Shown: piece after piece, positions 4,286-48,959 of the stretch
Layout of the letters: the number at the start of each line of letters is the position of its first letter
Position numbering within the stretch: the first letter of the stretch is position 1
The notes under the pieces: generated by a model
What the model was told of the DNA's origin: nothing
What the model saw: only the letters and a program-made list of their open reading frames with translations
Database searches by the model: none
Assembly: GCA_020152595.1 (NCBI GenBank)
Contig: JAIGNY010002249.1
Span: 542,001 to 606,000, forward strand
Origin: Chiridota heheva
Lineage: Eukaryota; Echinodermata; Holothuroidea; Apodida; Chiridotidae
DNA length: 64,000 nt
Direction of reading: 5' to 3'
Position numbers and translations under genes: made by a program

Positions 4286-5929
4286 CTCGCAAATTCGAAA
4301 GTATGAATATGGTATATTCTATTTCCAACATAAAAAAGTTAAGTTTCTTTCAAATGGCAGAATGAATTGTATCCTTCCTTATTGGTAGAATGAGTTTGCA
4401 CTGTCATGCTGAAAAGGAAAAGGAAAAATCATCATTATTCAAGTTGATCACCAGCGCTTTGTTAAAGTATTGCAATCAGTAAATGCATAAACTACTGAAT
4501 TTTTAAATCCATCAAACTCTATGCCCTCATCATATTCCATCTTTGAAGCACATACAGAGTTCTAGTGTTAATAGATATAAATAATTTCTCACAAAACAGA
4601 CAATCTTCCCTCAAATTATTTGGATAAGATTGGCAATCATTAAAACATGATTAAGAAAATTCTTGAATATAATTGGGAATAAAAACAATGAAATCTCACT
4701 TACATGTAGGCCTACTTAAAATACTCCATCTTGCTTGAAGAGCTAAACTAAACTGCACTTTTCAAATAACAAACTCAATTCCAATGGAAGCTTGCAATTG
4801 GTTGTAAAATTATATTTCATCACTCAGAGACTGGTCAGGGATATAATACATGCAAGGTCAACTATGACATGAATGACCAAACAAAGGGTATTTTCAAAAT
4901 TATACAAAGATTGAATGGAGGAAATGTTTACAATTATTAGGTACAAGCATGGAGCTATCAAGTTAATAGCTCCATGGTACAAAGTAAAAGACTGAACTGT
5001 ACAGGAATTCAAGAGGCCATGGTCCACTGCACAGTACATATAGGCATGAAAATAGATTAAGTTTCTGAAACTTTAGGTCTGTTTTTAGGGCAATAAATGA
5101 ATAAAGGACACTGTGCAGTGCAAGTAAAATATTTTGATAGTGATGCAAATTAAGTGTAAGTAATAAACAAACAGATAGGAGAGACAAACAGTGGAAATAA
5201 TAGTAAAAATATTGAAATTTCAATAATCGTGATCTATACTTCTCTCATATATTATATCATATTTAGGCCGATATGGTCAGTATAAAATTATGGAAATAAC
5301 TGGAAATAACAGAGGTACACATACCTAACAATGTAGTGAGTAATTGCTTTGTTCCTGTATTTGCTTTGTTCCTGTATTTGCTTCTCTTGTCATATGGGTC
5401 AATAGGATTAATGGTCAGGGGGTAAATTTGATCATGCACATGTAATGTGTAAGACTTAAGAGTACAAGCTGATGCGCTTGTCAATTGTACGACACACCCC
5501 TAGTACCCCGGCAATGTCAGTCAAGAGTGAGTTATTGACATGAAATAGTGACTCACATGTGTGTCATTGTACCAAATTGTCAGTCACCAGAGTGACTATG
5601 GGGTGGGTCAATTTACTTCAGACTCATTGACTTTGTACAGAGATAAATGATTTGAGGTAAGTCATTACAAAAAAAAAATGTCAGTCACCTAAGCAACTGA
5701 GGGGGTGTCAATCAATGTACATGTTTTGTCCACCCACTTTCGCTTTCACTTTGAGTCACACAATTGCAAGTGCTTAATACCAGGGAGCTATCATTTTCAG
5801 ATAATGACAGTAACCTCCTAAAATCCTATTGATTTCTTGTTCACATTTGTTTGTATCTAGTAATTGAATGTAATTGTTAAGTTTCCATTAGAATTTACAA
5901 TGAACAAATCATAGGCCTACATGTAAGCT
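4286..5929. other. No gene seen
   Basis: AT-rich sequence. It has a 17-bp direct duplication near 5345-5380 and several TGACT/AGTCA-type short motifs at 5515-5710. Open frames are short and unrecognised. The hairpin insertion at 4948 is listed separately. Confidence 0.6.
4948..4976. mobile_element. Ultra-short hairpin insertion with near-perfect 7-bp duplication
   Basis: CATGGAGCTAT, seven-base loop, ATAGCTCCATG. The flanks are GTACAAG (4941-4947) and GTACAAA (4977-4983), six of seven identical. One of five such insertions with matching flanks in this window. Non-coding. Confidence 0.6.
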
Positions 5930-6960
5930 TTGCTTCCAGCAGTCTAACAGACTAGTAGCTTGGGCAAGCTTGCAAAATCCATGTTGGCTTACATAATTAA
6001 CCTAACAAAAAAGTAACGTTAGCTTGTGCAAGCTTAGTTTTGACATACTTGTCAATATAAGCTCGTTGTTTCTATATGACGAAGATTTATCTCTTCTATT
6101 TAACAATATTTTGACAAGCTCTTTGACATTTAGATGCTAGCGATAAGCTCGTTAATACTTACACGAGGTTGTCTAAATATTGACAAGCTCGTGACGAGTT
6201 CGTCTAAATTTTGACGAGCTTGCGTGAGCTTGTCTAAGTTTTGACGAGCTCGCAACAAGCTTGTCTTAGTATTGACGAACTCATCTAAGTTTTGATGAGC
6301 CATCGACATTTAGACGAGCTTGCAACAATCTTGTGTATGTATTGATGAGGTCTCGACGAGCTTGTAGAAGTAGTGACAAGCTCGCGACAAGCTCGTCTAA
6401 GTATTGACAAGCTCACGACGAGCTCATTGTAAGTATTGATGAGCTCGCCAAGAGCTTGTTTAAGTTTTGATGAGTTTGTAATGAGCTCGTCTAAGTAATG
6501 ACAAGCTCATTTAAGCTTTGACAAGCTTGTCTAAGTTTTGACGAGCTCACTATGATCTCGTCTAAGTATTGATGAGCTCGCATTGAGTATATGTAAGTAT
6601 TGACAAGCTCACAGCGAGATCGTCTAAGTAATGACAAGCTCATCTAAGCTTTGACAAGCTCGTCTCAGATTTGACGAGCTCACTATGATCTCGTCTTAGT
6701 ATTGGCGAGCTCGCAATGAGCTCATGTAAGTATTGACAAGCTCGCAATGAGCTCAACTAAGTATTGATGAGCTCGCCAAGAGCTTGTTTAAGTTTTGACA
6801 AGCTTAAGTAATGACAAGCTCGTCTAAGTATTGATGAGCGTTTAAATATTGACGAGCATATCTAAGTTTTTACGAGCTCGCCGCAAGCTTGTCTAAATTC
6901 TGAAGAGCTAGTCGCGAGCTCATTTCTTAATGACTAGCTCATCGCGAGCTCATTTTTTTC
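5930..6960. repeat. 1-kb degenerate tandem array rich in GAGCTC and AAGCTTG
   Basis: Units of about 31 bp, mixed with shorter ~21-bp ones, share TTGACGAGCTCG and TCGTCTAAGTA. GAGCTC, AAGCTC and AAGCTTG occur dozens of times. Because AGCTC/GAGCT are self-complementary, both strands carry similar motifs. Periodicity sharpens from about 6100 onward. No coding potential. Confidence 0.85.
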
Positions 6961-7084
6961 TGTAAGGGATAATGTGATGTTGGTCTTTACGGAAGTGTGA
7001 CATCAGTCGCAATAATGCGAAGATGGTAATGAAATGATATTGCTGAAATGATCATGTAAACACTGTGTCTCAAGAACGCTAAAT

Positions 7085-7332
7085 TAGTCTTCACATTAGA
7101 TATGCAAATTTGGGGGGATTTTTCTCCGTGTGTAATTTTATGGCCAATTTTTTTTTGGGAAAAAAAAAAGAACCTCAAAAACGGCCAAAAATACCAAGAA
7201 ATGCCCAAAATTTGCTGGAAAAGGCCAAGTTTGGCATTTTTCTGCCAATTTTATTTTTTTTTTGGGGAGGGGAAGGGGGAGAATTACCTCTTCATGCTCT
7301 AGCCACATTCATGCACCTTAATGTGAACACTG
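7085..7332. mobile_element. hAT-type MITE, decayed copy
   Basis: The right end GTGAACACTG and left end TAGTCTTCACATTAG resemble the CAGTGTTCAC ends of the elements at 15197 and 57776. The interior shares a CTCCGTGTGTAATTTTATG-like block with them. No matching 8-bp duplication is visible (CGCTAAAT versus CCAGGTAC). Confidence 0.5.
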
Positions 7333-8269
7333 CCAGGTACACCAGATTCATATCATGTCAAGATATTTTATGATACGCAATGACAACAGTTAATACAAAA
7401 TTGATCAGCATAAACAAAAGCATCGGAACACATAACCTTTTGGTTCTGGGCCCTTATATTTTTGTCCTAGCAAAAAAGTGTGGGATGTACTTTATCCTAC
7501 CAGGGATCCCTGATCCTACAGTCCACTAGGCTCTGGTGTAGAAATATGTCCCATGCTGTATGAATGAAAAGTGTGCCAGAAGTTTGGGTGAAACTTATTG
7601 TAAGCCCAACCGACAGCTATTCTGTGCACACTAGAGATTGACAAGAAATCAAAACAAACTGTAGAGCAATGTTCTAGCAGAATAACAAGCCCCTGGTATA
7701 GTTCTGCTTTGCTCACTACTAGATATCATCTACCATATTGCATTGTGGGTGTTTTATTGATATAAGTCTATTCTCAATCAAGTAGAAAGCAGGGAAGTTC
7801 TTCATTGTCCATGGGGGGTTAACCCTTTATCTCTCAGTTTACCTGTCAGATTTTGGGGTGTGCAGAAGGATAACCCATCCATGCCATTGTCTTCTTCAAA
7901 CATTGTTCTAAATCAACAAGTGGAATACTGTACAATGGGGAAAGAAGTTAAGGTCATTTCTGTTGTTACCCCCATTGAGTGTCAAACTTAGTCTAAACCA
8001 CTCCATATAAGGGCAGTACTAAACAATGAAACCCAAAATGTACATAAATGAAAGGCAAACTGCCAAGAAGGTTAGATTATGAAGTAAGTGCTTTTCAACA
8101 CTTGCAACAGAATATGCCAGCTTGGACAAGAACACATGGTATTCAGAATATATCAGTTGCTAGATTGTTCTGGTTTCCAAATCATGTGATTGAGTTCTAT
8201 AAGGCGAAATGTTGATAGATAAATCATATCCTAAGTTGTTTTCTGTGTAATTTTGGCAATTAATTTCAA
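7333..8269. other. No gene seen; includes an R-A end fragment at 7366-7450
   Basis: 7366-7450 matches the 3' end of R-A copies, including AACCTTTTGGTTCT. The rest is unrecognised. Confidence 0.5.
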
Positions 8270-8436
8270 AAATTTTGCTATACATTACGCCCAAACCTTG
8301 CTACAAATTTTCAAGTCTTTTCATCCGCAAGAACCTCCATTTCGGCAGGTATGACTTTTAAACAGCTAGAAGCAATTAAGAAACACACCACAAATAATTC
8401 AGTGATTTTACGCATCAGTAATTACAATCATCTGAT
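8270..8436 (-). repeat. Dispersed repeat R-E, inverse of 38250-38410
   Basis: TTACGCCCAAACCTTGCTA, AAGAACCTCCATTT, TATGACTTTTA and GTGATTTTACGCATCAGTAA occur here. Their complements occur in reversed order near 38.3 kb. Confidence 0.75.
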
Positions 8437-10155
8437 GAAATATTTGTTCCATGATAATTATTCATAAGCCATACCCACTATGCAGATTATTAAAAATGTA
8501 GATAACATTAGCATACATATGCATAAATAATAAAATTATCATAACAAGTATGATTCAAAAACGATTGCTCATTTATCCTATTTCAGAATTTGTCAGTAAG
8601 CCCTGCTTGTACTCATTAATATTCATGATATCTCTTCCACAACAGCACAACATATGTACAGACCATACCCCTCTGTGTTCCTCATACTGTAAGTCTGATA
8701 TACCGTTCATGAGGTATGGGTGACTATGATGATTTTTGATCACTTTCACACATTAAGCCGCACCCACCCACCATGCATATTGATGACATCTGTTGATAAC
8801 ATAAACATGTGCACAATAACCAACGATATTAACATGCCCAGTATGATGCAAAACATACATATGGTTGTTCATGTATTAGACCCCACCCACTTATCAATAT
8901 GCATGACCATCACAAACAATTGAGCTTATCTATGGGCCATAGGCTATCCGTGCATATTATTCAAATTCAATGACATGACTCTAGCTAACATGATTTACCA
9001 TTCTTGAGATACTGTGTTTATTCAAGCTCTTTTCATGGACCAAAATCATTATTAATGAATTTACAAGCTCTTTTCAGCAAAATCTTTATGCATATAAATG
9101 AATTTAACAATTTCTGTCATGAACACTTGCACACTAGCTAACATCAGAACTATATTCCAAATATGAAAGAAAACAAACATACAATTGTTAAAATATGAAG
9201 ATTTCAATTTTTTATATTAAGCCCTGCCTACTCATTAGTATGTATGACATCACCATCAAAAACAATAGAACACATCTACAGACCATGGGCTACCTGTGTA
9301 CCACATAGGACATGAATCCAGTTCACCATTCTTGAGATACTGTGTTTACAAGCTCTTTTCAGCAAAATTATATTAAGCACCGCCCTTAACCTATAATAAT
9401 GAAACTCAACGTTTTTATACCAGGAACATGTACACACTAGCTAACATAATTACACCAAATATAAAACAAAACAAACATATGATTGTTAAAATGTGAGTAT
9501 TTTAAGAATTTTACATTACCTACTCGTATCATGAGTCTGACATCACCATAAAAACAATCTATGGACCATGGGCTATCTGTGTACCACATATGACAGGAAT
9601 CCAGTGTATTGTTCTTGAGATATCTTGTTTATGAGCTGGGCTTCACAAACATGCATACATACACAGTCCCCTAGCTTGATTTAAAAAGGGGCAGGGTGCT
9701 AGACTTGTTGAGGGGCACATTAATGCATGCGCGAAGTATTGCGTCTTTTCGGCATGGAGTCCAGGGACTCAATCCCATGGTGAAGAAGCTCTGGGATTTT
9801 AGCTATAATCATACATCTTGGAAGAAACTATTCTGATTGATAAGGACAATTCATGAGCCAAACCGGACAATTGCTTACTATGCTATCATTCTGTGTTCTG
9901 TATCCATGTAAGGTATTTCATTTATGAGGTTAATTAAAATTATTAAGTTTTAAAAAAAATAATCTTAATTTTGTTTATATAAATTTCTTATGAGGGGCAG
10001 GGCGGACCCCAGGGGGGCAGGGCGGGCCCACAGAGGGGCAGGGTGGGCCCCTGTAAAACAGCAAAGCTAGGGGTCTGCATACACACATACATACATACAC
10101 ACATGCACACCATCATGACTGCATAGCCTCCTGATGCTATCGCATTGGAATGAAA
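8437..10155 (-). repeat. Reverse-oriented multi-unit R-A repeat, interrupted by a MITE
   Basis: Reads as the complement of R-A: TATTTGTTCCATGATA at the left end, then repeated TCTTGAGATACTGTGTTTA blocks near 9003, 9333 and 9613. It finishes after the MITE with GATGCTATCGCATTGGAATG, the complement of the family's start. Units recur about every 300 bases. The MITE occupies 9664-10077. Confidence 0.85.
9664..10077. mobile_element. MITE family 1, copy 2, inserted inside R-A
   Basis: Ends CAGTCCCCTAGCTTGATTT and complementary CAGACCCCTAGCTTTG. Closely similar to copy 1, but the GGGGCAGGG motif near the right end is tripled. It splits a GT/CA-rich part of R-A. Both flanks read CATACA, compatible with a target duplication, although the local CA-rich repeat makes this ambiguous. 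Confidence 0.8.
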
Positions 10156-11390
10156 AACACACCAAGGTCAAACAGTTTGTATCACAAATGTGCATACTGA
10201 TGAAAAAGCAAAATGACAGAGGGAGCCAACCAGGAATGGCTTCAAGTATCAAGTCATTGCATCAAACCTTAGCTTCATCCAGAAAGGAGCAAGATGCACT
10301 GACCAAAATGGGCATTTCCAGGTATCAAAAGCACTTTTGATGGCAGGTTTGAAGGCATTTGAAATGTAAATATTAAAGGGATTGATTAAGACAAGAATTA
10401 GTGTGCCTGTTTCTATTAGGGAACTGTAATCAGCACGAAAACATGGAAAAATAAGTTCCTCACAGTACGTTTTTGTGAACAAAATGTGCTAGTGAAAGGA
10501 GCAGGGTGGAGCACGTACCCATCTGAAAAAGCAAAACTATGGGCCCATGATTGCATGGTATGCAGGGGAACATGGATGATATTTGGTAGATAGGGTTGGT
10601 ATCAGCTAGGTGTCTAGTGACAGGGCTGTAATTCCTGGGGACAGGGGAACATTTCATGGTATGCAGGGGAACATGGATTATATTTGGTAGATAGGGCTGG
10701 TATTAGTTTGGTGTCTAGTGACAGGGCTGTAATTCCTGGGGACAGAGGGACATTTCATGGTCCCTCCACATGGATGATATTTTTAGGGCAGTATCAGAAT
10801 GGTTTTGACACAATCCTCAGCATTTATTATGAGGAACAAAATTTTGTCCTCTATCCCCACTTTTCCAGTGACGGATAAGAGGCAGTGTCCCTCCCTTCCA
10901 CATGAAGAAAATGTTCCTTTTTTTTTTTAGCATTTGACCCCCCTTCCATCTCCCTTCTCCTTTCCAAATGCTAATTATGGCCCTGGTCAGGGAGGAAGAG
11001 CAGGGATGTGTTACCAAGGTCAGAATGAATGCCAAGAAGGAATGCTCCCAATGATGTTAGTTTTGCCAATTATGTTGACAAATTACTATTGCAGCTCTTA
11101 TAAAAACAATACAAACATAAAAAGGTTAAAATTATCTGGGGATGGCGGTCACTCTGTTTGACCACTGTCCCTGTAATAACCACTGTAATAACCACTTGTA
11201 ATTCGTATTTGTTTGAATTGGTGAGTGGTGACCAATATTTGTAACAGTTGCCAAGATAAACAATCTATACATCATCAGAAATATAGGTCAGTATTGTCAG
11301 AAGATGAAAGCATTTTCTATAACCTGCCCTCTTCTGTCAGTAGGCTATTCAGTGGAAATTATAAATTAATAGAAGGTACTCTTGAGTACT
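10156..11390. other. No gene seen apart from a 101-bp duplication
   Basis: Open frames are short and unrecognised. A T run lies near 10918-10929. The duplication at 10554-10800 is listed separately. Confidence 0.6.
10554..10800. repeat. 101-bp tandem duplication with a partial third copy
   Basis: CATGGTATGCAGGGGAACAT starts at 10554 and 10655. A decayed third start, CATGGTCCCTCCACATGGAT, lies at 10756, again 101 bases on. The copies differ by a few substitutions. Confidence 0.9.
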
Positions 11391-11745
11391 TATGGACTAG
11401 AAGTTATGGACTAGTAGTTATGGACTAGTAGTTATGGACTAGTAGTTATGGACTAGTAGTTATGGACTAGTAGTTATGGACTAGTACTTATGGACTAGTA
11501 CTTATGGACTAGTAGTTATGGACTAGTAGTTATGGACTAGTAGTTATGGACTAGTAGTTATGGACTAGTAGTTATGGACTAGTAGTTATGGACTAGTAGT
11601 TATGGACTAGTAGTTATGGACTAGTAGTTATGGACTAGTAGTTATGGACTAGTAGTTATGGACTAGAAGTTATGGACTAGTAGTTATGGACTAGTTAGTT
11701 ATGGACTAGTACTTATGGACTAGTAGTTATGGACTAGAAGTTTTT
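11391..11745. repeat. 14-bp tandem array, about 25 copies
   Basis: Unit TATGGACTAGTAGT, containing the palindrome ACTAGT. Nearly homogeneous, with a few GAAGTT and ACTTAT variants and one 1-base insertion near 11695. Confidence 0.97.
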
Positions 11746-12949: not shown

Positions 12950-13140
12950 GTGGAGTGCGACGATTTTCTATACTAAAGGGGTTGGGGTATGCAGCCCATT
13001 AATCCAAAATCACACCTGCAATATGACATTTGTTTCAGTACCTGCAGTATGAAATCATACAGTTTTGATACCTGTAATATGAAAGATTGTTTTGATACCT
13101 GCAATATGCATGAAAGTAGTTAATTTAATCAATATTTTGA
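12950..13140 (+). repeat. Dispersed repeat R-D with internal ~30-bp repeats
   Basis: TATGCAGCCCATTAATC is followed by four degenerate units carrying TACCTGCAGTATGAAA and TTTTGATACCTG. The complement lies at 45640-45860. Confidence 0.8.
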
Positions 13141-13166
13141 TAATTGTTGTTAACTTGGGCGGCTTT

Positions 13167-13629
<463 letters not shown>

Positions 13630-13879
13630 CCTCATATAAAATTGCCCTCTCCCCTCCTCTTCCTCCTCCCTTCCCCTTCCCTCCCCTTTCCCCTTCCCCT
13701 CTCCTTCCCTTCCCCAACATGATGTCTGTGAATTGTATAGATCTGAGAACAAATTTACATTCTGAGAGTCAAATCACAAAATGCCACTGACTGGTTGATG
13801 AATCTTTTTCAAGGAATTGCTTAGAGTGGAGGAAGGAGGGGGAGAGGGGGGGACATAACCATTGTTGGACTGAAATGAA

Positions 13880-14015
13880 GAGAAGTGCAGATCTCAGGCC
13901 TTTGTGGTCACCACAAAGGCCTTTTCTTCATATGCATATTTTGTAAGGCGCATTAGAATAAGTTATTTTGATAATGCGCCATATAAGTGTAATAAACTTA
14001 AACTTAAACCATCCA
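13880..14015 (+). repeat. Possible retroposon 3' tail with two hairpins
   Basis: AGGCCTTTGTGGT and its exact complement pair across one base (13896-13922). GGCGCATTA pairs with TAATGCGCC. Then comes ATATAAGTGTAATAAACTTAAACTTAAA. A stem, a GCGCC-ATATAAGTG block and a short tandem A-rich tail resemble the 3' ends of some LINE/SINE elements. No coding part is attached, so the call is tentative. Confidence 0.3.
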
Positions 14016-15196: not shown

Positions 15197-15501
15197 CAGT
15201 GTTCACGCTAAGGTGTGGTATTCCCGATATGATATTCCTGCTAAGAAATAATTAGAGGGGGGGGAGGGGAATTCATTTAATTTGTATAAAACGGCAAAAA
15301 ATACCAAATTAAATTTTTAAAAAGGTAAATTTTGGCATTTCCCAACCATAGTTTGGTATTTTTGGTGGTATTCCTCAGGTCTCTTTTGATAATTCTATTA
15401 TTTCTTCAAAAAGAATTCCCCCCCTTTTTTTTTAAATCCCACCAAAAAATAACAAAAGGGGGAAAAACCCTCCCAAATTTTGAACCTTAGTGTGAACACT
15501 G
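15197..15501. mobile_element. hAT-type MITE with 8-bp target-site duplication
   Basis: Left CAGTGTTCACGCTAAGGT; the complement of the right end is CAGTGTTCACACTAAGGT, 17 of 18 identical. The flanks TAGGCTAA (15189-15196) and TGGGCTAA (15502-15509) match at seven of eight positions. An 8-bp duplication and CAG...CTG termini are hallmarks of hAT transposons. The interior is A/T- and G-run-rich and encodes nothing. Confidence 0.85.
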
Positions 15502-18847: not shown

Positions 18848-19320
18848 ACTCCTAAACACTACAGAATATCTCCTAAATACAACAGATTATCTCCTAAACA
18901 CCACAGATTATCTCCCAAATACGACAGATTATCTCCAAAATACGACAGATTATCTCCAAAATACGACAGATTATCTCCAAAATATGACAGATTATCTCCT
19001 AAATAGATAGATTATTTCCTGAACACTACAGATTATCTCCTAAATATGACAGATTATCTCCAAAATACGACAGATTATCTCCAAAATACGACAGATTATC
19101 TCCTAAATAGATAGATTATCTCCTAAATACTACAGATTATCCCAAAGTATGACAGATTATCTCCAAAATATAACAGATTATCTCCAAAATACGACAGATT
19201 ATTTCCTAAATACTACAGATTATTTCCAAAATACAACAGATTAGTCTCCAAAATACAACAGATTATCTCCTAAATACGACAGATTATCTCCAAAATACAA
19301 CAGATTATCTCCAAAATATA
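18848..19320. repeat. 21-bp tandem array, about 22 copies
   Basis: ACAGATTATCTCCAAAATAC plus one base is the commonest unit. Early units carry CTAAACAC or CTAAATAC instead of CAAAATAC. Confidence 0.95.
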
Positions 19321-26580: not shown

Positions 26581-26584
<4 letters not shown>

Positions 26585-28676
26585 CTACATTCTGGTATGT
26601 TGCCCGTATTTGTTTTATTTCATTTATCAGAAAACTGGTAAAGATCATGACATGTTTGCTTTCACAGACAAAAAAAATCACTACTTTTTTTGGCTCTTCC
26701 CACTCCCATATGTTCATATTTTACTGACCCGATTAGACAAAGGTTAAAGTTTGAACTCATGAGTCTGAAAATCATACCCACAACTTGAAAGCTGGTTGTT
26801 TTTTTTTTCATTTTCTCTGTATATTGTTATTGGTTAATGTAACATGGCTCATATTGTTTGATCACAGAATGGAATTATTTAAATGGTACTTTGTGTTAAT
26901 AGGGTGAACACTTTTTGAGCAGAATTTAGGTGGAGTATTGTACCTGTGAGCATAACAATTGAACTCACATTGTCTTAACAACTCCCTGGTTAACAACTCC
27001 CTGGTGTTACATATCTGCTTTCAATTCTGATTTGTGTTGAGCTGTGGGCAAAATAAAATGTTCCACTGCAATATTTGTGTACATTTTAAATTTTAAGAAG
27101 GACAAATGTTGATATTAGGCATGCTAAAGAACAGGAGCAAAACATGATTCCAAAAAAGTATGAAATATCTAGTAGCAGTTTTAATATATATCAATTTATC
27201 AAACCTTTGTTTTCTGATTAATTGTGTTCAGCATAATAAAATGTTCCACTGCAATACTTTGTTTATATTTTAAATTTCAAAAAGGACTCGAAAAATCTTG
27301 ATATTATGTGATAAAGAACATAAACAAAACTTTGTCAAAATGGTACAACATATCTTGTTACAGTATTGATTTATCAAACCTTTGGTAAGTTTTGAAAAAA
27401 GATTTGCATCTGAAACCATCAACAGGATATGACATCACATACTCACCTCCTGTGAAATTGTTAATTCTTGTACATGATGATTTTTTTTTTTTTTTTTATA
27501 GTAAACTGAGTAAAAATGACTCAATTTCTTTGAAATGTTTACAATCTAAAGCATTCATGCCCTAAATTATTAGGGAGTATTGCACAATCTTTCTTCTTTG
27601 GGGGGAATTTGGTAGGATAGCCCAGTCAGTCAAAATTAAGCTTTACTATTTTCCAGGCCAAAAGTTGTAGATATTTCTATAGAAATAAACATTCAATTAT
27701 AAGGCTCCTCTACCCCATGTTCTTTCATTCTTGTTATCAGTCGCTGACTTTTAGTGAAAGTACTCCAAATTTAATGCTATAATTTCCAAGAAATCAAAGA
27801 AATATTTTCCAAGTCTTACTGGCTTCTGATGATAGCTGGTTTATATGCAAATCACCACAGAAAAAAAGACCTTTGATGCTAAACTGAAATGATGCAGTTT
27901 GTATTTTAAAGGTACCTGCTGAGCAGGGTGTCTCTCTAAATAGCAGGTCCCTGCTCAAATGCGATTTGTTTTGATCTGTTTAGATCTTGACCAGGAAATG
28001 AGTGAACCTTTGTGGTAGGTGGCCAAGAGTTCACCTACCATCAATTGGTTGACAGCAATCAAACCTATTGAAAAGTAGTGTATCCCTGATGCTATGGAGT
28101 CACATGCATCCAGGCACATGTGATTACTTTCTTGTTCATTAACAGAGTATCCCATTAGGAGAAAGACCTTGTGGTGATTTTCAGATTCAAACTAGAGAAT
28201 ATAACTTTCTTTTTCTGAAAGTATTTCACAGATAGTTGATTTTACTGTCATGAAATAGGGTTAAGTAACAGTTTTGAAGTTTTTAGAGCTTCAAGAGAGC
28301 AGCTTGACAATGGTTTGGGGTTTGTTTCAAAAATGGTGGGAATGAGTTCCAGCTATTGTTTGTCTTGGAAAGTATTGTGAAGAAAGAGAGCTATGTAAAT
28401 CCATGTTTCTAACATATGAGATGTTGGTAGCAATATTCTTAAAGTGGGGGTAATGAAAGATATGTGATGTGTGATAGGGCTGGGCTGGCTGCTGAGGGCA
28501 TTCAATTCCTTGAGTGTTTTCCTTAATTTCCAACTTGACAGTGAAAATTAGGGGAATGTCTTTAAACATTTGCTAATTGGGAATATGATATTCAATATTG
28601 TACAATTTTATCTTGTCATTGGTGCCCAAGCAGGCCCCCTTTTTTTTTTTTTTTTTTTTTTTAAACCTTGTGAAGT
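26581..28676. other. No gene seen
   Basis: Contains a 15-bp duplication TTAACAACTCCCTGG near 26977-27004, a T run near 27481-27499 and a poly-T tract at 28640-28662. Unrecognised short frames only. Confidence 0.6.
27040..27400. repeat. 183-bp tandem duplication
   Basis: ATGTTCCACTGCAATA occurs at 27058 and 27241. TTATCAAACCTTTG closes both halves. The copies are moderately diverged. Confidence 0.85.
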
Positions 28677-29480
28677 TTGTCAAACCATTTGGGGTTTGTC
28701 AAACCATGTCAAACCATTTGGGGCTTGTCAAACCATTTGGGGTTTGTCAAACCATTTGGGGTTTGTCAAACCATTTGGGGTTTGTCAAACCATTTGGGGT
28801 TTGTCAAACCATTTGGGGTTTGTCAAACCATGTGGGGTTTGTCAAACCATTTGGGGTTTGTCAAACCATTTGGGGTTTGTCAAACCATGTGGGGTTTGTC
28901 AAACCATTTGGGGTTTGTCAAACCATTTGGGGCTTGTCAAACCATTTGGGGTTTGTCAAACCATTTGGGGTTTGTCAAACCATTTGGGGTTTGTCAAACC
29001 ATTTGGGGTTTGTCAAACCATGTGGGGTTTGTCAAACCATTTGGGGTTTGTCAAACCATTTGGGGTTTGTCAAACCATGTGGGGTTTGTCAAACCATTTG
29101 GGGTTTGTCAAACCATTTGGGGCTTGTCAAACCATTTGGGGTTTGTCAAACCATTTGGGGTTTGTCAAACCATTTGGGGTTTGTCAAACCATTTGGGGTT
29201 TGTCAAACCATTTGGGGTTTGTCAAACCATTTGGGGTTTGTCAAACCATTTGGGGTTTGTCAAACCATGTGGGGTTTGTCAAACCATTTGGGGTTTGTCA
29301 AACCATTTGGTGTTTGTCAAACCATTTGGGGTTTGTCAAACCATTTGGGGTTTGTCAAACCATGTGGGGTTTGTCAAACTATTTCGGGTTTGTCAAACCA
29401 TTTGGGATTTGTCAAACCATGTGGGGTTTGTCAAACTATTTAGGGTTTGTCAAACTATTTCGGGTTTGTAAAACCATTGC
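28677..29480. repeat. 19-bp tandem array, about 41 units
   Basis: Unit TTTGTCAAACCATTTGGGG, with CATGTGGGG and GGGGC variants in a repeating order. Each unit contains the small inverted repeat GGTTT-GTC-AAACC. Three units equal 19 codons, so all three forward frames are open across it. These frames are not genes. The last ~100 bases are more diverged. Confidence 0.97.
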
Positions 29481-33450: not shown

Positions 33451-34072
33451 ACCCTCTCTGACATCAAACCGCTTATCGCTTCCCTTGTTCGTAACTGCTG
33501 GCAAACCTCATGGAACTCCCAAATTGATAACAAACTCCATGTCATCCAGCCCACAATTCCAATCAAATCCACCATCAACAACCTCTCTTGCATCGACAAC
33601 GTTCATATTACCTGTCTTAGAATTGGTCTACCCACCTCACTCACTCCCACCTCCTTATTGGCTACCCCCAGCCCCTCTGCAACAATTGCCACTGCACCCT
33701 CACAATCCATCACGTTCTCCTTGCTTGCCCCTGTACAACCTTCCCAGAGCTTCCCTCGCTCCCAACAACTCAATTGCTGAGTTCTTTCAGAAAAATTCTC
33801 CTAATAAAATGATCTCCTTCATTATGCTTCCCTTTATGCTTCCCTCTACAACCATATTTAATTCTTCTCTTCCACCCCCTCTCTACTTTGTTTTTGTTTC
33901 AACCATGCACCTCCCCTTTTGATCACAGCTTTCTGACCTTTTGTTCTTAAATTTCTCTCATTCTCCCCCTGTTTCCTTTCCTTCCTACCTCTAGAATGAT
34001 CTGACCTCTCAGGCACAATTTGACCTTCGTTGTCGTGGCACCATTAAGCCCTCATCAAACAAACAAACAAAC
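33435..34072 (+). pseudogene. Decayed LINE 3' end: RNase H-region C-terminus, zinc-knuckle-like tail, (CAAA)n
   Basis: One frame gives LSDIKPLIASLVRNCWQTSW followed by NKLHVIQP and LRIG. After a one-base frame change the next gives HLTHSHLLIGYPQPLC, then NNCHC, then LTIHHVLLACP. WQ-W, NKLH-IQP, RLRIGHT-LTH-LL and C-C-LT--H-LL-CP are the conserved C-terminal landmarks of RNase H-carrying non-LTR elements of the I/Nimb type. The sequence ends in AAACAAACAAACAAAC at 34057-34072, the expected 3' tail. The catalytic RT lies outside the truncated copy. The open frame at 33485-33922 is a different, shadow frame. Confidence 0.8.
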
Positions 34073-35717: not shown

Positions 35718-36515
35718 TGTCCAATTTGGGGGTATACCTGTCCAATTCGGGGGTATACCTGTCCAATTCGGGGGTATACCTGTCCAATTGGGGGTATACC
35801 TGTCCAATTTGGGGGTATACCTGACCAATTTGGGGGTATCCCTGTCCAATTTGGGGTATGCCTGTCCAATTTGAGGGTATACCTGTCCAATTTGAGGTAT
35901 ACCTGTCCAATTTGGGGGTATACCTGTCCAATTTGGGGGTATACCTGTCCAATTTGGGGGTATACCTGTCCAATTTTGGGGTATACCTGTCCAATTTTGG
36001 GGTATCCCTGTCCAATTTTGGGGTATTCCTGTCCAATTTGAGGAATCCCTGTCCAATTTGGAGGTATACCTGTCCAATTTGGGGGTATACCTGAACTATT
36101 TGGGGGTATACCTGAACTATTTGGGGGTATACCTGACCAATTTGGGGGTATACCTGACAAATTTGGGGGTATACCTGTCCAATTTGGGGTGTATCTGTCC
36201 AATTTGGGGGTATACCTGTCCAATTTGGGGGTATACTTGTCCAATTGGGGGGTATACCTGTCCAATTTGGGGGTATACCTGTCCAATCTGGGGGTATACC
36301 TGTCCAATTTGGGGGTATACCTGACCAATTTGGGGGTATACCTGTCCAATTTGGGGGTATACCTGTCCAATTTGGGGGTATGCCTGTTCAATTATGGGGT
36401 ATCTCTGTCCAATTTGGGGGTATACCTGTCCAATTTGGGGGTATACCTGTCCAATTTGGGGGTATACCTGTCCAATTTGGGGGTATCCCTGTCCAATTTA
36501 GGGGTATCCCTGTCT
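35718..36515. repeat. 21-bp tandem array, about 38 copies
   Basis: Unit TGTCCAATTTGGGGGTATAC plus one C. It includes the palindrome GTATAC. Variants carry CTGACCAATT, CTGAACTATT, GGGGTATCC or GGTGTATC. The period is a multiple of three, so frames on both strands stay open and give Leu-Asp-Arg-Tyr-Thr-Pro-Lys-type repeats, which are not genes. Confidence 0.98.
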
Positions 36516-36791
36516 AATGATGCATGCAACATCTCTCCTACACAAAACCCACACAAATAATATCGCCTTTCAAGCAGTAGAATTTGATCTCATTAATTAC
36601 CACAAGCTGAAATTACTTTTTATTGTATTTTCTTTGTCTAAGAAAAATTACATGCTTGATTTGGCAACAGTTGCTTCCTCACAACCACATGTGATGGAAA
36701 GGATATATAGATAACTTAACAAGGACTAGGATTATGGTACTTAGTGGGATAGCTAATGAAAGGACAAACTTGTTTGCTGGATCAATTTGAC

Positions 36792-38777: not shown

Positions 38778-38939
38778 TTTTTCCCTTCATATTTTGCGAT
38801 AAACATGTTCAGAAAAGTTAACTGAGAGACTATTTTGTCATATAGATTGTAAGATTTTGCGATGTGTAATTTTATTCCTTAGGATTTGCCATCTCAACGA
38901 CAAAATTATAGTGTTACAAATAAATGATGTTTTTTTTTT

Positions 38940-41279: not shown

Positions 41280-41565
41280 ACTTGGTCCAGAATTGAAGGT
41301 TTTTGATTCTAAGTTGTCAATTTTGGTTCGTACTTCAAAAATTTGGCCCTCAATTGCAAATTTTGTCCAAAAATTGTAGATTTTTGGTTTGAAATTGAGT
41401 ATTTTGGGGTTGAAAATTAAAGATTTTTGGTCCAGAAATGAAGATTGTTGGTTCAGAAATCAAGATATCTGGTCCAAAATTGAATATTGTTGGTCCAAAA
41501 TTAAAGATTGTCAGCCAAATATTGAAGGTGTTTGGTCCAGAATTGAAGCTTCAATTCAACACAAC
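41280..41565. repeat. Degenerate ~30-bp tandem repeat
   Basis: TTGGTCCAAAATTGAAGATT-type units repeat about eight times and resemble R-C subunits in composition. Confidence 0.7.
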
Positions 41566-41570
41566 CAGTG

Positions 41571-41936
41571 CAGACCTGCCAACTAGTACGATTTTGCCGT
41601 ATTTAATACAGGAAAATGTTGAGAATACGATTGTACGTTTTTTGGCACCAGAATACGTTTAATTTATTTATTTATTTTTATATTTATTTTTTTTACTCAT
41701 ACTTTATACGCTCGGTTGGCGTTCATGTCCTCTTGAAGGATTGATTTTGCCGACTTAACCGATTGAGATTCAGATTCGTACAATAAGAGAAACTGAAAGT
41801 ACAGTGGTAATTTTTTTTCAGCCACAGTAAACCTTTGTTTTGTACATTTTGTTTGAAGAGTACAGTTTTTTTTTATCAAAAATACAACTTTTGTTGTTCC
41901 AGAATACAGTTTGGTGATAAAAGGTTGGCAGGTCTG
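41571..41936. mobile_element. MITE family 4
   Basis: Left CAGACCTGCCAAC, right GTTGGCAGGTCTG: 13-base perfect terminal inverted repeats 366 bases apart. The interior is AT-rich with TACGATTTT/AATACG motifs near both ends and encodes nothing. CAG...CTG ends suggest hAT, but the 8-base flanks AACCAGTG and CTGGTGTG do not match. Confidence 0.75.
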
Positions 41937-42004
41937 CTGGTGTGGTCAAACATTAGAGCATGTCGGAGCTGAGCAAAACAGAAGAAGTTAAATATATAGT
42001 GGTA

Positions 42005-42395
42005 CTGAGCCAGTTTTTGTACTGATTCTGAATAAACTAGCCCATGATTTGTGGATGTGCCTTATTGGTTTTGGTGGTGATACCATGCATATTAATGAGT
42101 AGGCGGGGCTTAATGTAAAATTCTTCAAATATGATACATGAGCAACCCTATCTGTTTTGCATCATACTTGCTATGATAATGTTGTTAATTATTGTGCACA
42201 TGGTAGTGTTGTTAATAGTTATATCTATTTTATTGATCTGCATCATGCATGGTGGTCGTGGCTTATGAATTAATATCCTGGAACAAATATTTCATAATAT
42301 GCAATGACATGACAATTTATACGAAACTTGCAAACCAATCAGCATATGAAGAAAAAAAATCGGAACCACAAAACCCTTTGGCTCTTGTTTTATAT
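42005..42395 (+). repeat. R-A repeat, truncated copy with 3' end
   Basis: TTTTGGTGGTGATACCATGC, TTAATGAGTAGGCGGGGCTT, ATATTTCATAATATGCAATG and GGAACCACAAAACCCTTTGG match the 3' part of the copy at 22968-24430. Confidence 0.85.
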
Positions 42396-44407
42396 ATGAT
42401 AGAGAAAATTTATAGAAACAAAGTGGTGAAAAAGTATGTTAATATCTTATTCCGTTTAGAAGTTATAACAATTAGATTAGACTTGAAAAAGGTTCTTAAA
42501 AATACCTTGTACAGTATATGTCCTTCAGCTTGGTGATGTCATCAAGGCAATTCCAGCACAGTTCCTATGTATTTCTTATGAATTTAATCACCCTTTTTTT
42601 GCATTATCAAACAGCATTTTTGGTTCATTATAGAGGTAGGGTAGAATATATAATTTACAAGAACATATTTTGTTCTTTTTTCCTTGGTGTACATCACATT
42701 TTCAATAAGAAAAAAATCCAAATCATTTTTAAAGAAATACAAAAGACATTTTTTTGAAATTTTCTCTATGACATCACAGATGTTGCCAATCAGTTACTTT
42801 TGTCCAAATGTGATACCCTTTGGTTATACCCCAATTGTTTCCCCCTGATGGTAATTTATATCTTTCACAAGTGAAATAGCCAGATGGCCAACTAGGAAGG
42901 GGAGAAGGAGGAGGGGGGGGAGGTTGATCGTCCCCAATACTTTAACTGATTGGTTGAGATTTGCACACGTCAACACATTTTGTCATTTCCCTTCCATTTG
43001 CCTGCCCTCACCTGCCAGTAATATGGAAATCTATAGATGGAAATCAGCTACACCACTTGCTTGCATGCTAAGAATGCATTATTTCAATGCTGCATGACCG
43101 TGAATAATTTGGTCAATGCAGTAAGTTCTCTATTCTATATTCTATCACCACTAGTGTCCGATTATTCATTTCAAGCTACCTGATTGGCTGACCAGCCTCA
43201 TTTGCATAATCCTACTGTCCGGTTCATTACTCAACGAATGGACAGTAGCTGAAAAAATGACCAATGACAGCACTCCCTGTCAATAACCGGGCAGTTGCAT
43301 ATTCATTAGATTGACAGTTTCTAATGTGGGGTACGGGTATTAAACTCCTACATTAATCATGGTAACCACGGATTAACCTTCAATAATAATACTATGCACA
43401 AAACTAAATTATGCCGAAAATACTCAATTTCACTTTCAGCAGGAACAAACTTCTTGCTGACAAACTGATTATGTCAGATTTAAATTAAGCAACAACATAG
43501 TCCAATGTGCACAGCTTAAAATAGAATGCAATAAATAAAAAGCAAAAGTTAGGTTCCTACAACTTGTTCATACTAATACTGTACCTAAGTTCAACAGAGC
43601 TATGATATGTTCAGTACTTGCACCAAACAAGTTATTACTAGGAATAAAATGTGCCACTGCTTGCTTTTTTTTTTTTTTTTCTTATTTGTAACATTAGGGC
43701 CTAAGCTTTTAAACAGTGTTTACAACACAATTGAATTGCACGTGTCTACAGGCTACACTACTGTCGTTGTAGCTAGCATAGCAGAGACCAAACACTATGT
43801 TCAACAACTTCAAAACTGTTCAAACCTTTCTATTCTGACAAATTTGAGACTATTAAGTAGCAGTAGTTTCTGTTCCAATAACAACTAGGCCTGAAAGAGT
43901 CACCATTTTCCAGTATTCTTTACACTTTGATGGGACTCGGCCATGTGCTTCAAGCTTTCAGCCAAAGTGTACTGCAATGTTGTTTTACTAGTGCAGTACA
44001 TGTTTAGCGCTGGCCTTCAGTACAAGTGTGTAGTGACATGACACTGACATAATTTTGACCTTTGTGTTTTGTTTCTTGGTAAGATAACCAAAGATATTTT
44101 TTCTTTAGGGATAAACCAGAATATTTTTCTTCTGGAATATTACTTTTATTTTGCAAAATACTTACATTACATTTCTAAATTGATGAATTCGAGAGTCATT
44201 TACGAGATCAAGTTTTTGTTTGTTGGACAAAAGTACAAATTGGTGGATTAGAAACGGTCAACATTCTCTCTGTGTTGTCATATGCAAATAAGCTGGATTG
44301 ATGCACGTGCTGTACTGTGTATTAATTTCGCACGTTTCTTCATCTTAATTTTATCAGATTTTCTTTATTTTTCAAAAGTTTTTAGCATATTTGGTGATAG
44401 AATAGAT
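42396..44407. other. No gene seen; histone-promoter-like motif cluster near 43.2 kb
   Basis: At 43178-43330 there are GATTGGCTGA and GACCAATGAC CCAAT boxes, the octamer ATTTGCAT (43199-43206), and CTACTGTCC/GGACAGTAG arms at 43212 and 43240. No ORF or snRNA-like gene follows. A second octamer, ATGCAAAT, is at 44282-44289. Short open frames are unrecognised. Confidence 0.4.
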
Positions 44408-44558
44408 ATAAACTGCTCTTGCTTGCCCATTGTTGGTAATAACTGGCTCGCCCAAATAATTTGAACTATTAATGGGCTCCGCTTCGCCTCTCCCATTATT
44501 CTTCAAATTATTTGGGCTTGCCGCTTGTTACTCAAAAATGGGCCCAATTGCAGTTTAT
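44408..44558. repeat. 150-bp foldback element
   Basis: Arms of about 65 bases. ATAAACTGC pairs with GCAGTTTAT at the ends. GCCCAAATAATTTGAA pairs with TTCAAATTATTTGGGC. AATGGG and CCCATT close a ~15-base loop rich in GCTTCGCCTC. The middle of the arms has several mismatches. No flanking duplication is evident. Confidence 0.85.
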
Positions 44559-45639
44559 TTCTTAATAAGATAGTAGGCTTAATCTTAATTAATAGAAGGC
44601 TTGGGAAAATTTGTGAATAATTGGACAAGAAACCCATCCTTTTCTGGATGAGAATTGCAGTCCTGACTATATGACATTACAAGGGCCCCTCTTCCCTAGC
44701 TGAACGTACAGATCAATCTCCAAACCACAATGCAGACGAATAACTAGGGACCGCGGGCAAGTTTTGAGGTTGAGGGGAGGCCTGAAGAAGTAAATGGTGA
44801 AAATTGAAGGCGACTTCACAAGTTAATATTAAATCATGTATGCTTAACTCTTTAATTTTGTGCAATTATTTCAGATTTTCGAAAATTTGTTTATTTTTTC
44901 TTTTTCAGGTTTTCAGAAAAGTTTGTCATTTTTGGGAACTCTCTTTAAAATTATGGTAAAATTTTGGACAATTAGGAAAATTTTGTTCATTTTTGAGCAA
45001 TTTTGAGGAAACTTTTGTCAATTTGAGGAAATTTTGCACACTTTCCCTAAATTTCCATGGCCCCCCAATAATCTTCAAAGCAATGGTTTTATTTGTGTTA
45101 ATTATATTTTTAAATATTACATTGGTCTAGCCCCCCCTACCCTCCATATAAAACCTGTGTCAGGGGCTTGTCATTACATCAATTGTCTGGGGGATTTTGA
45201 TTGACATGTAGCAATGTGTGTAATTACTGCCACATTTTTCTGAGAATACAAGGGTGTTCATTTTTCAGTGTTTTATTCCTCAAGAGCTTTTGTCATTTTT
45301 TTGTCACATTCAGGTGATCTATGGTTGATGCTTCTGTGAACAACAGGGCCTGCAGGATAGATCCCACAGATGGAGCGACATAAGGGCGCTCATGGATTAA
45401 AACTGGTATGTGAGTTTAGTTTGAGGTAAAACTGAATTGTTGGGGTGCTTAGAATAAATCCCAGGGGAGGGGGGGCACTTCCATATATGTCAGGTATATG
45501 TATTTGTGCCCCCCGAGCAGGTGCATTTTTTGCACCATTTTTGTAGTGCAGGTGTCTTTAAAAAAAAATCTTTTTTTTTTTTTAAGTAAAAAAAGAAGGT
45601 TTTTTTTTTTCTCATCATTTTCATAGCGCAAGTCCCCAA
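44559..45639. other. R-C-like A/T subrepeats at 44740-45060, otherwise no gene seen
   Basis: GAGGAAACTTTTGTCAATTT-type units at 44880-45060 resemble the complement of R-C. A/T homopolymers at 45558-45612 create a Lys/Phe-rich minus frame. Confidence 0.5.
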
Positions 45640-45860
45640 AAGTGAGGTTTTACTGTGTGAATTTTGTACTGCTGCTCCATTTTTACAATATTTTTGTTGA
45701 ATACTCATACTGCAGGTATCAAAATTAACTTCTTTCATACTGCGGGTATCAATATTGTATAATTTCATACTGCAGTTACCAAAAAATATGTTGTACTGCG
45801 GGTGTGTTTTTCAATTGGTGGGCTGCACACCCCTACCACTTTTAGTATGAAGTGCCCCCA
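45640..45860 (-). repeat. Dispersed repeat R-D, copy 2
   Basis: CATACTGCAGGTATCAAAAT, CATACTGCGGGTATCA and GGGCTGCACACCCCTACC are the complement of 12950-13140 in reverse order. Confidence 0.8.
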
Positions 45861-47149
<1,289 letters not shown>

Positions 47150-47269
47150 GTAGTAATAAAGTAGGGATACAGCATGAAAATAGATATGAATATATGGAGA
47201 AGATAAAACAATGGCAAGGCTGTAAATAGCCTACTCAAAGAGCAAGCAGCACTTTGTAAAAGCATTTTT

Positions 47270-47740
47270 CAAACAATCATAAGTAATAATTTTTCTCGAA
47301 CTTGATGAGTAATTAATATTCCTCTCCGAGTCAACTTTAAGTAAAAATTTCAACTTATATAAAAATTCATTACAAAATTCATTACAGATCGGTAAGTTAT
47401 CATCACTTTGTTTGTGGAAAATATAATACTTTAATTGAAAGAAGAGGAAATTACAAGAAAGGTGGCATTTGTTTTAAGTTAAAACCAAATAATAAATCCC
47501 TACGTGAAAATATAAATTGCCTGTTTAAAACAGCCTGCTCTATGTCCAGTAAAGGCTTAGAAATAGAAGAACAGTCCAAGATGGCTTATTGTTTTTTCCT
47601 GAGATTTACAGAAAGAACAAAAAGAGTTGTCCCTAAGGTTTAAATGATGCAAGTGAAGGATTAGGGTATAAAGAATAGAGGGATTGTGATTTAACTCATC
47701 TGGAAGACATTTTGCCCGGCAAGTGTCATTGCATTTCACG
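47270..47740 (-). pseudogene. Decayed LINE ORF2 C-terminus with zf-RVT-like motif
   Basis: On the minus strand, LNLRDNSFCSFCKSQEKTIS then HL (about 47575-47650) fits the zinc-binding C-x2-C...H tail of LINE reverse transcriptases. One frame change later comes LDIEQAVLNRQFIFSRRDLL, then FGFNLKQ, as seen after that motif in the family. Further residues down to about 47280 are broken by several stops. It lies in what would be the first intron of the THAP-exon gene, on the same strand. The polymerase domain is absent. Confidence 0.65.
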
Positions 47741-47963
47741 TGTCTTCACACAGCTCATTCACATCACATGTACAACAAACATACTGCCTGCTAAGTTGCT
47801 AACCTACCTGTACCAGTTCAGCGAATTGTATTGTTTTTTTTGTTCAAGGCGGCGATTTTACTTCATATTTTCCTAACGTTTATATATTCACCTGGTATAC
47901 GAAGAGTAAATTTTACGTGAACGTCATCTGATTGTTCCTTATATGCAGACAAAGCCTACATAC

Positions 47964-48142
47964 CTGGCATTAAAGTACTCACTGCAAATCTTAGTGTGAA
48001 GCGAAGGTTGAAAGACGTTGCTACGTACAACAGAAACCCACTTCGAACGTTGATCAGGATCAAATTGAAATGGAGAACACGTCTTTTTATTCCCCGGCAC
48101 ACGCCTGTTAGTGCAATCAATGGCACAGCAAGATTGTAGCAT
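47964..48142 (-). CDS. First coding exon of a THAP-domain protein (partial)
   Basis: The product begins MLQSCCAIDC; ATG is at 48140-48142. Residues 5-60 fit the N-terminal THAP zinc finger, a C2CH DNA-binding module found in animal transcription regulators and P-element-type transposases. Visible landmarks are the Cys pair C5/C6-C10, F25-x-F27 with DP after it, the invariant Trp35, and C53. The motif ICSEYF has Tyr56 where the family has the zinc-ligand His (CSEHF); one base change, TAC for CAC, would explain it. The frame then meets CCAG/GTATGT at 47964/47963, an excellent splice donor, leaving two bases of a split codon. Later exons are not recognisable in the window. A YY1-like site and a TGAGTCA array lie upstream. 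It may be a living gene with an altered finger, a pseudogene or a domesticated or decaying transposase exon. Confidence 0.6.
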
Positions 48143-48230
48143 AATTATCTTACAAAAATTATGTTATATAACAACATGCAAGCTTTTGTAAGTCTAAATA
48201 AGTGTACAGCAGACAATCGTTCTCGCCCAA

Positions 48231-48258
48231 CAAAATGGCGATGTAAAGTCATGTGACC
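48231..48258 (-). promoter_or_regulatory. Probable promoter motifs upstream of the THAP exon
   Basis: CAAAATGGCG (48231-48240) is a YY1-type motif, about 90 bases upstream of the minus-strand ATG. GTCATGTGAC (48249-48258) contains an E-box of the USF/TFE type. TTACGT follows near 48263. YY1 sites near start sites are common in animal promoters. The transcription start is not determined. Confidence 0.35.
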
Positions 48259-48321
48259 TTATTACGTTATCTGAAACACCCTTATAGGAATACTTGAATA
48301 TTTCAGGACAGAAAATATAAC

Positions 48322-48886
48322 TAACTTGTTGCTACAAGAGTTAGTGTCAGGTTGATATACATTACAACATGAGTCACAATTTAACTTGCTGCTACAAGAC
48401 TTAGTGTTAGGTTGATATACTGTACAACATGAGTCACAACCCAACTAACTTGTTGCTACAAGAGTTAGTGTCAGGTTGATATACTGTACAACATGAGTCA
48501 CAACCTAACTAGCTTGTTGCTACAAGAGTTAGTGTTGGGTTGATATACTGTACAACATGAGTCACAAACTAACTTAACTTGTTGCTACAAGAGTTAGTAT
48601 CAGGTTGATATACTGTACAACATGAGTCACAACCTAACTTAACTTGTTGCTACAAGAGTTAGTGTTGGGTTGATATACTGTACAACATGAGTCACAACCT
48701 AACTAATTCGTTGCTACAAGAGTTATTGTTAGGTTGATATACTGTACAACATGAGTCACAACCTAACTTGTTGCTACAAGAGTTATTGTTAGGTTGATAT
48801 ACTGTACAACATGAGTCACAACCTAACTAACTTGTTGCTACAAGAGTTAGTGTTAGGTTGATATACTGTACAACATGAGTCACAAC
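48322..48886. repeat. 60-65-bp tandem array, nine units, each with TGAGTCA
   Basis: Units contain CTTGTTGCTACAAG, GTTAGGTTGATATACTGTAC and AACATGAGTCACAACC. TGAGTCA starts at 48370, 48430, 48494, 48558, 48623, 48688, 48752, 48812 and 48876. Two inverted repeats recur: CTTGT-TGCT-ACAAG in most units, and GTTAGGTTG...CAACCTAAC in the better-preserved ones. The array starts about 180 bases upstream of the THAP-exon ATG. Confidence 0.95.
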
Positions 48887-48924
48887 CATTAAATTTGTGG
48901 AAAGAAATGCAATCTACTTCTCAG

Positions 48925-48952
48925 CAGGGATACTGCTATAACAGTATCCCTG
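48925..48952. mobile_element. Ultra-short hairpin insertion, CAGGGA variant
   Basis: CAGGGATACTG, loop CTATAA, CAGTATCCCTG. The flanks are TTCTCAG (48918-48924) and TTCTCAA (48953-48959), six of seven identical. Same architecture as the CATGGA members, with a different third base. Confidence 0.55.
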
Positions 48953-48959
48953 TTCTCAA

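Follow-up and report, generated by a model that had tools for sequence, protein, structure and literature searches.

Short hairpins between 7-bp duplications in the Chiridota heheva genome as probable excision scars of P-superfamily transposons

Excision footprints of P elements are known mostly from laboratory crosses. When a Drosophila P element is excised, 17-nt 3' overhangs are left at the donor site (PMC2895639; the 17-nt end is documented in PMC4004357 as well), and joining at long microhomologies at these excisions depends on polymerase theta (PMC2895639). Here we describe structures closely resembling such footprints in a 64,000-nt stretch of the genome of the holothuroid Chiridota heheva (assembly GCA_020152595.1, contig JAIGNY010002249.1, positions 542,001 to 606,000 of the forward strand; hereafter the window), where a first-pass annotation had pointed out five short hairpins that start with CATGGA or CAGGGA, end in the complement and are bounded by direct repeats. 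Judged from sequence comparison, these hairpins are very probably repair scars left by the excision of P-superfamily DNA transposons, not tiny inserted elements. Such scars number in the thousands in this genome, which holds very few recognisable elements.

The likeness to the Drosophila P{wa} footprints is one of architecture: both consist of a duplication, a partial end, a microhomology or an insert (in some cases templated), a second partial end and the other copy of the duplication, with ends that begin with CATG and finish with CATG (PMC2895639). Drosophila P differs in its 8-bp duplication and 17-nt tails, against 7 bp and about 18 (18-20) nt here, and its footprints are laboratory events, whereas here we find many old, inherited natural copies. 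Galileo, a member of the P superfamily in Drosophila, shares a P-type transposase and a mostly 7-bp palindromic duplication (GTATTAC or GTANTAC) with the present system but has long and variable inverted repeats (PMC4168063); the main text of that paper does not contain the word 'footprint'. Zebrafish Pdre2/THAP9 is alike in its P-type transposase, its inverted repeats and its non-insect host, but has an 8-bp duplication, a 13-bp inverted repeat and a THAP domain, which was undetected in the proteins scanned here (PMC7776569, PMC10983969). Miniature inverted-repeat transposable elements are also short, have inverted repeats and target duplications, and reach high copy numbers. They have a common interior between two intact ends, whereas the ends sampled here have no shared interior, one-ended forms occur and the interiors resemble repair junctions; one class, CATGGAGTTACAATTTACTCCATG, is possibly part of a larger repeat.

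All five hairpins were confirmed at the positions given in the first-pass annotation, and flush 7-bp direct repeats flank each of them, as three exact pairs and two pairs with one mismatch, which falls on the last base in both (GTACAAG/GTACAAA and TTCTCAG/TTCTCAA). When the window was searched for structures of 14-60 bp with perfect outer arms of 6 nt and flush 7-mers differing at no more than one position, 11 loci were returned; 20 Markov controls gave 3.15 on average. All five hairpins are among the 11, and are the sole ones with a CA start and a TG end.

Comparable loci were then sampled across the genome (1.1 Gb, 3,744 contigs). We fetched 48 of the 50 listed CATGGA places and 20 of the first 23 listed CAGGGA places, counted loci with similar surroundings once and left the window out of the counts per class. 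The flanking 7-mers of 21 palindromic CATGGA loci were exact in 7, differed at one position in 7 and at two in 1, and were worse in 6 (2, 2, 1 and 9 for 14 non-palindromic matches to the pattern); for 14 palindromic CAGGGA loci the figures were 7, 3, 3 and 1 (1, 1, 1 and 2 for 5 non-palindromic ones). The window and all samples together comprise 83 distinct surroundings, 60 palindromic and 23 non-palindromic. Flush 7-mers at the 60 palindromic loci were exact in 26, with one mismatch in 16, two in 8 and more in 10. A duplication flush with the retained ends, as in P excision footprints, is thereby present with at most one mismatch in 42 of 60, against a mean of 1.37 and a maximum of 6 in 1,000 permutations of the right flanks. 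Other repeat lengths gave 2, 1, 0 and 0 such loci at 5, 6, 8 and 9 bp, and before similar contexts were merged the count at 7 bp was 48 of 66. The duplicated target is palindromic, with a preference of about GTYNRAC (symmetrised over the 42 loci: G1 0.48, T2 0.81, T/C3, A/G5, A6 0.81, C7 0.48). The earlier proposal of insertion with target-site duplication is borne out by these flush repeats; the suggested comparison of flanking 7-mers with a control, run on samples rather than on the whole genome, was passed.

To avoid choosing hairpins, we also sampled exact copies of single ends. The first family, CATGGAGCTATTAACTGA, has 512+507 copies in the genome, of which 20 were fetched (the 27 dispersed places heading the list minus 7 already examined); the second, CATGGAGGTACCACTTTA, has 252+223, of which 16 were fetched (the first 18 dispersed places listed minus 2 already examined); and the third, CAGGGAGTTGGCATTA, has 193+163, from which we took 4 selected places in addition to the first 16 distinct ones listed, two parent ends being left out of the counts below. 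All 20 loci of the first family diverge within 2 or 3 nt past nucleotide 18. The limit in the second family is 18-22 nt, an upper bound because the opposite arm may by itself resemble the bases that follow. Loci of the third family follow the parent element to nucleotide 16 in 6 cases, 17 in 1, 18 in 8 and 19 in 3, and none of these 18 matches the parental inverted repeat past nucleotide 19; three of them share one repeated context and three share another. Since the parental ends are identical over 28 nt and the sampled loci stop by nucleotide 19, the limit lies inside the inverted repeat, at about ...TAGA|AGGAGTC in the second and third families. The 17-nt end of Drosophila P is followed by AGGTGG. 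Retention of a near-constant length, as a staggered cut leaves it (17 nt in Drosophila), is thus found here too, with exceptions at C389, C2066 and L145. The left 7-mer recurred within the next 55 nt, unchanged or with a single mismatch, at 11 of 20 loci in the first family, 14 of 16 in the second and 7 of 18 in the third (7 of 14 when distinct surroundings are counted), against 5-8% after permutation. Within the roughly 70 nt viewed downstream, and hairpin arms apart, none of the 52 unselected ends continues like a parent or shares an interior across different flanks.

The junctions themselves are varied. A script divided 32 loci with a duplication into 19 two-ended and 13 one-ended, 4 of the latter (L048, L058, L111, L116) being two-ended by eye, with a mutated right end. 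One-ended junctions carry no filler (L115) or a filler of A (L064), C (L097) or GAG (L090), and the filler GATG at L103 and L118 contains a TG that may be the other end; the flush duplication has one mismatch at L097 and is exact at the other five. Elsewhere the filler repeats the left end (L045, L112) or is inverted (L102, L153), and may have been templated. CATGGAGCTATTAATAGCTCCATG, the 24-mer expected from a TTAA join, is found in two different surroundings (L005, L014). Taken together, the one-ended junctions, the locus-specific filler and the TTAA 24-mer argue for end-joining rather than for copying of one element.

Three putative parent elements have such ends. The element at C187:61520-90575 (29,056 bp) has ends identical over 28 nt (CAGGGAGTTGGCATTAGAAGGAGTCACA; 3 of the next 4 nt match), an exact 7-bp duplication, GTTGAAC, and a P-type transposase inside. 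In C1505, AATGTAC|CATGGAGGTACCACTTTAGA lies at 15276 and the same end recurs in inverted orientation where the contig runs out, 3 nt short of the element end; the two enclose 9.39 kb with a transposase, and the inverted repeat is 20 bp. C418:94013-114742 has the same two ends as C187, plus a transposase. The inverted repeats of C187 and C1505 have the CA...TG form of P-superfamily ends and compare with about 31 bp in that superfamily. Judged by their ends, C187 (29 kb) and C418 (21 kb) are unusually large for P-type elements, and other insertions are possible inside them; Drosophila P measures 2.9 kb.

On the reading that we favour, a P-superfamily transposon would insert with duplication of 7 bp of its target. 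At excision, its transposase would make a staggered cut, at the 3' ends of the element and, on the opposite strand, about 18 nt further in, so that some 18 nt of each terminal inverted repeat would remain on the chromosome as 3' tails. Because the two tails have the same sequence on opposite strands, end-joining would yield a palindrome. The joint could be direct or lie at a self-complementary word (TTAA, for example), it could take up filler copied from the neighbourhood, or one of the tails could be lost; the repair enzyme may be polymerase theta-like. What the genome presents are the duplications, a limit to the retained length, junctions of these types, and parents that combine such ends with P-type transposases, one of them with the 7-bp duplication. 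Parents of 9-29 kb may disfavour templated gap repair, so that scars would outnumber elements; small non-autonomous parents, now lost, are an equally possible source. The description of the hairpins as a class of insertions does not hold on this reading, in which a full transposon was inserted and the hairpin is the end-joining remnant. Among the three hypotheses of the first-pass annotation, that of transposon termini joined end to end was essentially right, and its link to P-type transposons, put forward as speculative, gains support from parents with the same kind of ends.

PF21787, the P-type RNase H domain, is matched 46 times in the genome, some genes having more than one matching piece. 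This domain (RNase H N) is present in all four 7-kb transposase loci and in part at C187 (L150); PF21788 (GTP-binding insertion) is over its cut-off in L025, L026 and L027, and PF21789 (RNase H C) in L025 and L067. The three sit in separate exons; an RNase H fold interrupted by a GTP-binding insertion is characteristic of P-superfamily transposases. All three are seen in C418 (L027/L067), and PF21787 alone in C1505 and C187, where the other exons were unscanned. The P-element helix-turn-helix domain PF12017 (cut-off 23) passes this threshold in L025 (23.5) and L150 (23.8). It falls slightly short of it in L027 (21.9) and L028 (22.1) and is absent in L026. No THAP match was found in four long open reading frames (upstream first exons not searched). 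At the transposase N-terminus, RAG1_imp_bd is over its cut-off in L025 (C3339; 3.8e-7) and L027 (C418; 7.2e-6), and zf-AD is under its cut-off in three of the four long reading frames. A RAG1-like N-terminus of a P-superfamily transposase is relevant to the N-RAG-TP story in Aplysia (PMC8355894). Blind inverted-repeat searches of the four 7-kb loci gave no ends because the exons extend beyond them, and wider stretches revealed the ends of C1505. Candidate end pairs in C449 and C24 were rejected as not being elements. Further ends with the inner motif AGGAGTCNCA include CATGGAGTTAGAAGAGA at L145, which could itself be a long scar, and CATGGAGGTAGAAAGAGA at L146. Of the 36 places with this motif, most are uninformative, being members of a 33-bp repeat class, described below, or of its variants.

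With reversed patterns as the control, CATGGA-N(4-25)-TCCATG occurs 9,485 times against 1,388 (7-fold), CATGGA with an N(26-55) spacer 4,861 times against 1,715, and CAGGGA-N(4-25)-TCCCTG 5,683 times against 324 (17-fold). The two short patterns have a summed excess of 13,456 places, with tandem copies counted in. Not all of these are independent: among the 50 CATGGA places listed, 8 are copies of the 33-bp class and 6 of a 24-bp class, in both cases inside repeats with similar contexts. Scaling by 36/50 leaves about 5,400 CATGGA places above control, which with 5,359 CAGGGA places makes roughly ten thousand, a figure extrapolated from the head of a list. The short patterns also miss scars, catching 7 of 20, 9 of 16 and 2 of 18 of the ends sampled by end word alone. 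No paper on genome-wide P-type excision scars was among the matches listed in a literature search. The excision process itself is known; how abundant the scars are, the variant of the process with 7 bp and 18 nt, and the rarity of intact parents were not found in print among those matches.

Several points weigh against excision as the origin of the hairpins, which is read from sequence and is not an observed event. At 18 of the 60 palindromes the flanking 7-mers have at least two differences, and the duplication also occurs at 8 of the 23 non-palindromic matches (5 exact, 3 with one mismatch), of which some may be scars with a lost arm and others chance. In the first end family, 18 of 20 loci have A or G as nucleotide 19 and 14 of 20 have A as nucleotide 20; if these still belong to the element the limit may be 20 nt, and in one family it is nearer 20 than 18 nt. 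Longer stretches are kept at C389 (about 45 nt) and C2066 (about 39 nt), which had been candidates for intact 5' ends and proved to be long scars, and L145 also extends past the limit. A duplication of 7 or 8 bp is visible at one of the three parents: C1505 is truncated by the contig end, and C418, the flanks of which mismatch (gtatgac/ctcaaac), is therefore perhaps recombinant or a wrong pairing of ends. A full-length element with the same ends as the hairpins had been suggested as a check; C187 provides one for one family, and none was found for the window's two best-counted CATGGAG families, CTATTAACTGA and ATACTATTTGG, which kindred ends, the duplication and the junction style would link to P-type parents. 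Finally, CATGGAGTTACAATTTACTCCATG or a near copy recurs with the duplication ATATGAT at six places (L016, L041, L042, L073, L080, L082), and we rejected it as a recurring independent product because similar contexts at all six fetched loci mark a copied repeat; it is probably a scar or a small element carried by a dispersed repeat.

Many of the scars are old and inherited, as indicated by diverged duplications, satellites, copied repeats and a scar that was later hit. Under a cut-off of one mismatch, 16 of the 42 duplications contain one, corresponding to about 5% per base. Scars within repeats have been copied along with their flanks (L108/L123/L124 and the six CATGGAGTTACAATTTACTCCATG loci), and the scar at L028:5465-6564 is interrupted by a younger element, roughly 1 kb long, that has the ends TTAGAGCTGTGA... 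and is itself flanked by a 6-bp duplication (TGGAGG). End words also occur in satellite arrays in C102 (periods 35 and 40), C413 (period 19) and C699 (period 58), which scars or their filler may have seeded; the arrays lie at C102:2040872-2041448 and 2249691-2250976, C413:239342-239682 and C699:1829234-1829889. The 33-bp class CATGGAGTTTGTTATCAATTTGGGAGTTCCATG was rejected as a scar on account of its constant flanks (window 33509; L010, L018, L020, L021, L023, L024, L081). It accounts for 7 of the 48 fetched loci, which were dropped from the first duplication count and counted once in the merged one.

Hairpins of 22-36 bp might instead be micro-transposons, mobilised in trans by a transposase that reads nothing but their ends. 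This would fit the flush duplications and the presence of identical hairpins in different contexts, such as CATGGAGCTATTAATAGCTCCATG and the 35-mer of scar 4 (Table 1), which recurs identically in L015 between a different duplication. At L115, L090 and L064, one-ended but with an exact duplication, there is, however, no second end to move; the filler varies from locus to locus, CATGGAGCTATTAATAGCTCCATG is what TTAA joining predicts, and Drosophila P ends require 138 and 216 bp for movement (PMC1562414); we regard micro-transposons as very unlikely. The excess of scars over intact ends (none of the 52 unselected ends being recognisably intact) could also arise if the germ line kept the elements and the assembly showed the product of somatic or programmed excision. 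We hold this to be less likely still, given that the duplication copies have diverged in 16 of 42 cases, that scars lie in copied repeats and end words in the C102 and C413 satellites, and that the L028 scar was later hit.

Short palindromic DNA between duplications is also what one would expect of a transposon-independent process, either templated hairpin insertion at breaks or a Cas1-like integrase inserting hairpin DNA. Such a process is hardly credible here: ends of this kind bound P-type elements, one of which has a duplication of equal length, the retained part stops at a near-fixed place within the ends, and for one family a parent with the same ends and duplication was found. That the hairpins are chance palindromes or low-complexity sequence has a negligible probability. 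Some matches to the bare pattern are indeed chance or copied (15 of the 23 non-palindromic ones have at least two mismatches, and the 33-bp class is a repeat), but the 7- to 17-fold excess over the reversed control speaks against chance for the whole, which the 7-bp duplication signal already refutes.

If the hairpins are excision scars, one non-model genome offers thousands of natural repair junctions from breaks with known starting ends. Such junctions directly reveal the germ-line end-joining pathway, the extent of trimming and the origin of filler, and the divergence of the duplications serves as a rough clock for them. A 7-bp/18-nt relative of the P mechanism is now available for testing. 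Unexplained short hairpin repeats can be tombstones of a nearly vanished transposon family, so that element counts may badly underrate past activity. A further and rather unlikely step would be that P-type elements of 9-29 kb leave this lineage by mutagenic end-joining far more often than by restoration from the sister copy, with perhaps ten thousand repaired breaks archived and some of them seeding satellites, and with excision perhaps promoted, or placed under developmental control, by the host or the transposase's RAG1-like N-terminal domain.

The features of the window are listed in Table 1. They include three likely scars absent from the first-pass list, at which no duplication was seen. 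The ends of scar 4 belong to a family with 232+202 exact ends genome-wide.

Table 1. Putative excision scars and flanking duplications in the window.
Feature	Start	End	Strand	Sequence and remarks
Left duplication, scar 1	4941	4947	+	GTACAAG; target-site duplication
Scar 1	4948	4976	+	CATGGAGCTAT...ATAGCTCCATG; 29 bp; ends resemble the CATGGAGCTATTAACTGA family
Right duplication, scar 1	4977	4983	+	GTACAAA; 1 mismatch
Left duplication, scar 2	12059	12065	+	CTTAAAT
Scar 2	12066	12090	+	CATGGAAGTAG...CTTCCATG; 25 bp
Right duplication, scar 2	12091	12097	+	CTTAAAT; exact
Likely scar	26975	27003	-	end CAGGGAGTTGTTAA in tandem x2, as templated filler could produce
Likely scar	27935	27953	-	CAGGGACCTGCTATTTAGA end, as in the genome's CAGGGA-pattern hairpins
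Likely scar	30239	30273	+	exact 18-nt end CATGGAGCTATTAACTGA, then imperfect other end TAGCTCCTTG
Left duplication, scar 3	36785	36791	+	ATTTGAC
Scar 3	36792	36813	+	CATGGAGTT...AACTCCATG; 22 bp
Right duplication, scar 3	36814	36820	+	ATTTGAC; exact
Left duplication, scar 4	36900	36906	+	ATCAAAG
Scar 4	36907	36941	+	35 bp; CATGGAGATACTATTTGG-family ends
Right duplication, scar 4	36942	36948	+	ATCAAAG; exact
Left duplication, scar 5	48918	48924	+	TTCTCAG
Scar 5	48925	48952	+	CAGGGATACTG...CAGTATCCCTG; 28 bp; CAGGGA class
Right duplication, scar 5	48953	48959	+	TTCTCAA; 1 mismatch

The window also contains a member of the 33-bp class at 33509-33541, a near-palindrome (CATGGAACTCCCAAATTGATAACAAACTCCATG) from the interior of a larger dispersed repeat. 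Many tandem arrays, whose units measure 19-64 bp, lie at 122-1460, 18849-19318, 28675-29478, 35718-36518, 48318-48887 and 60317-61105.

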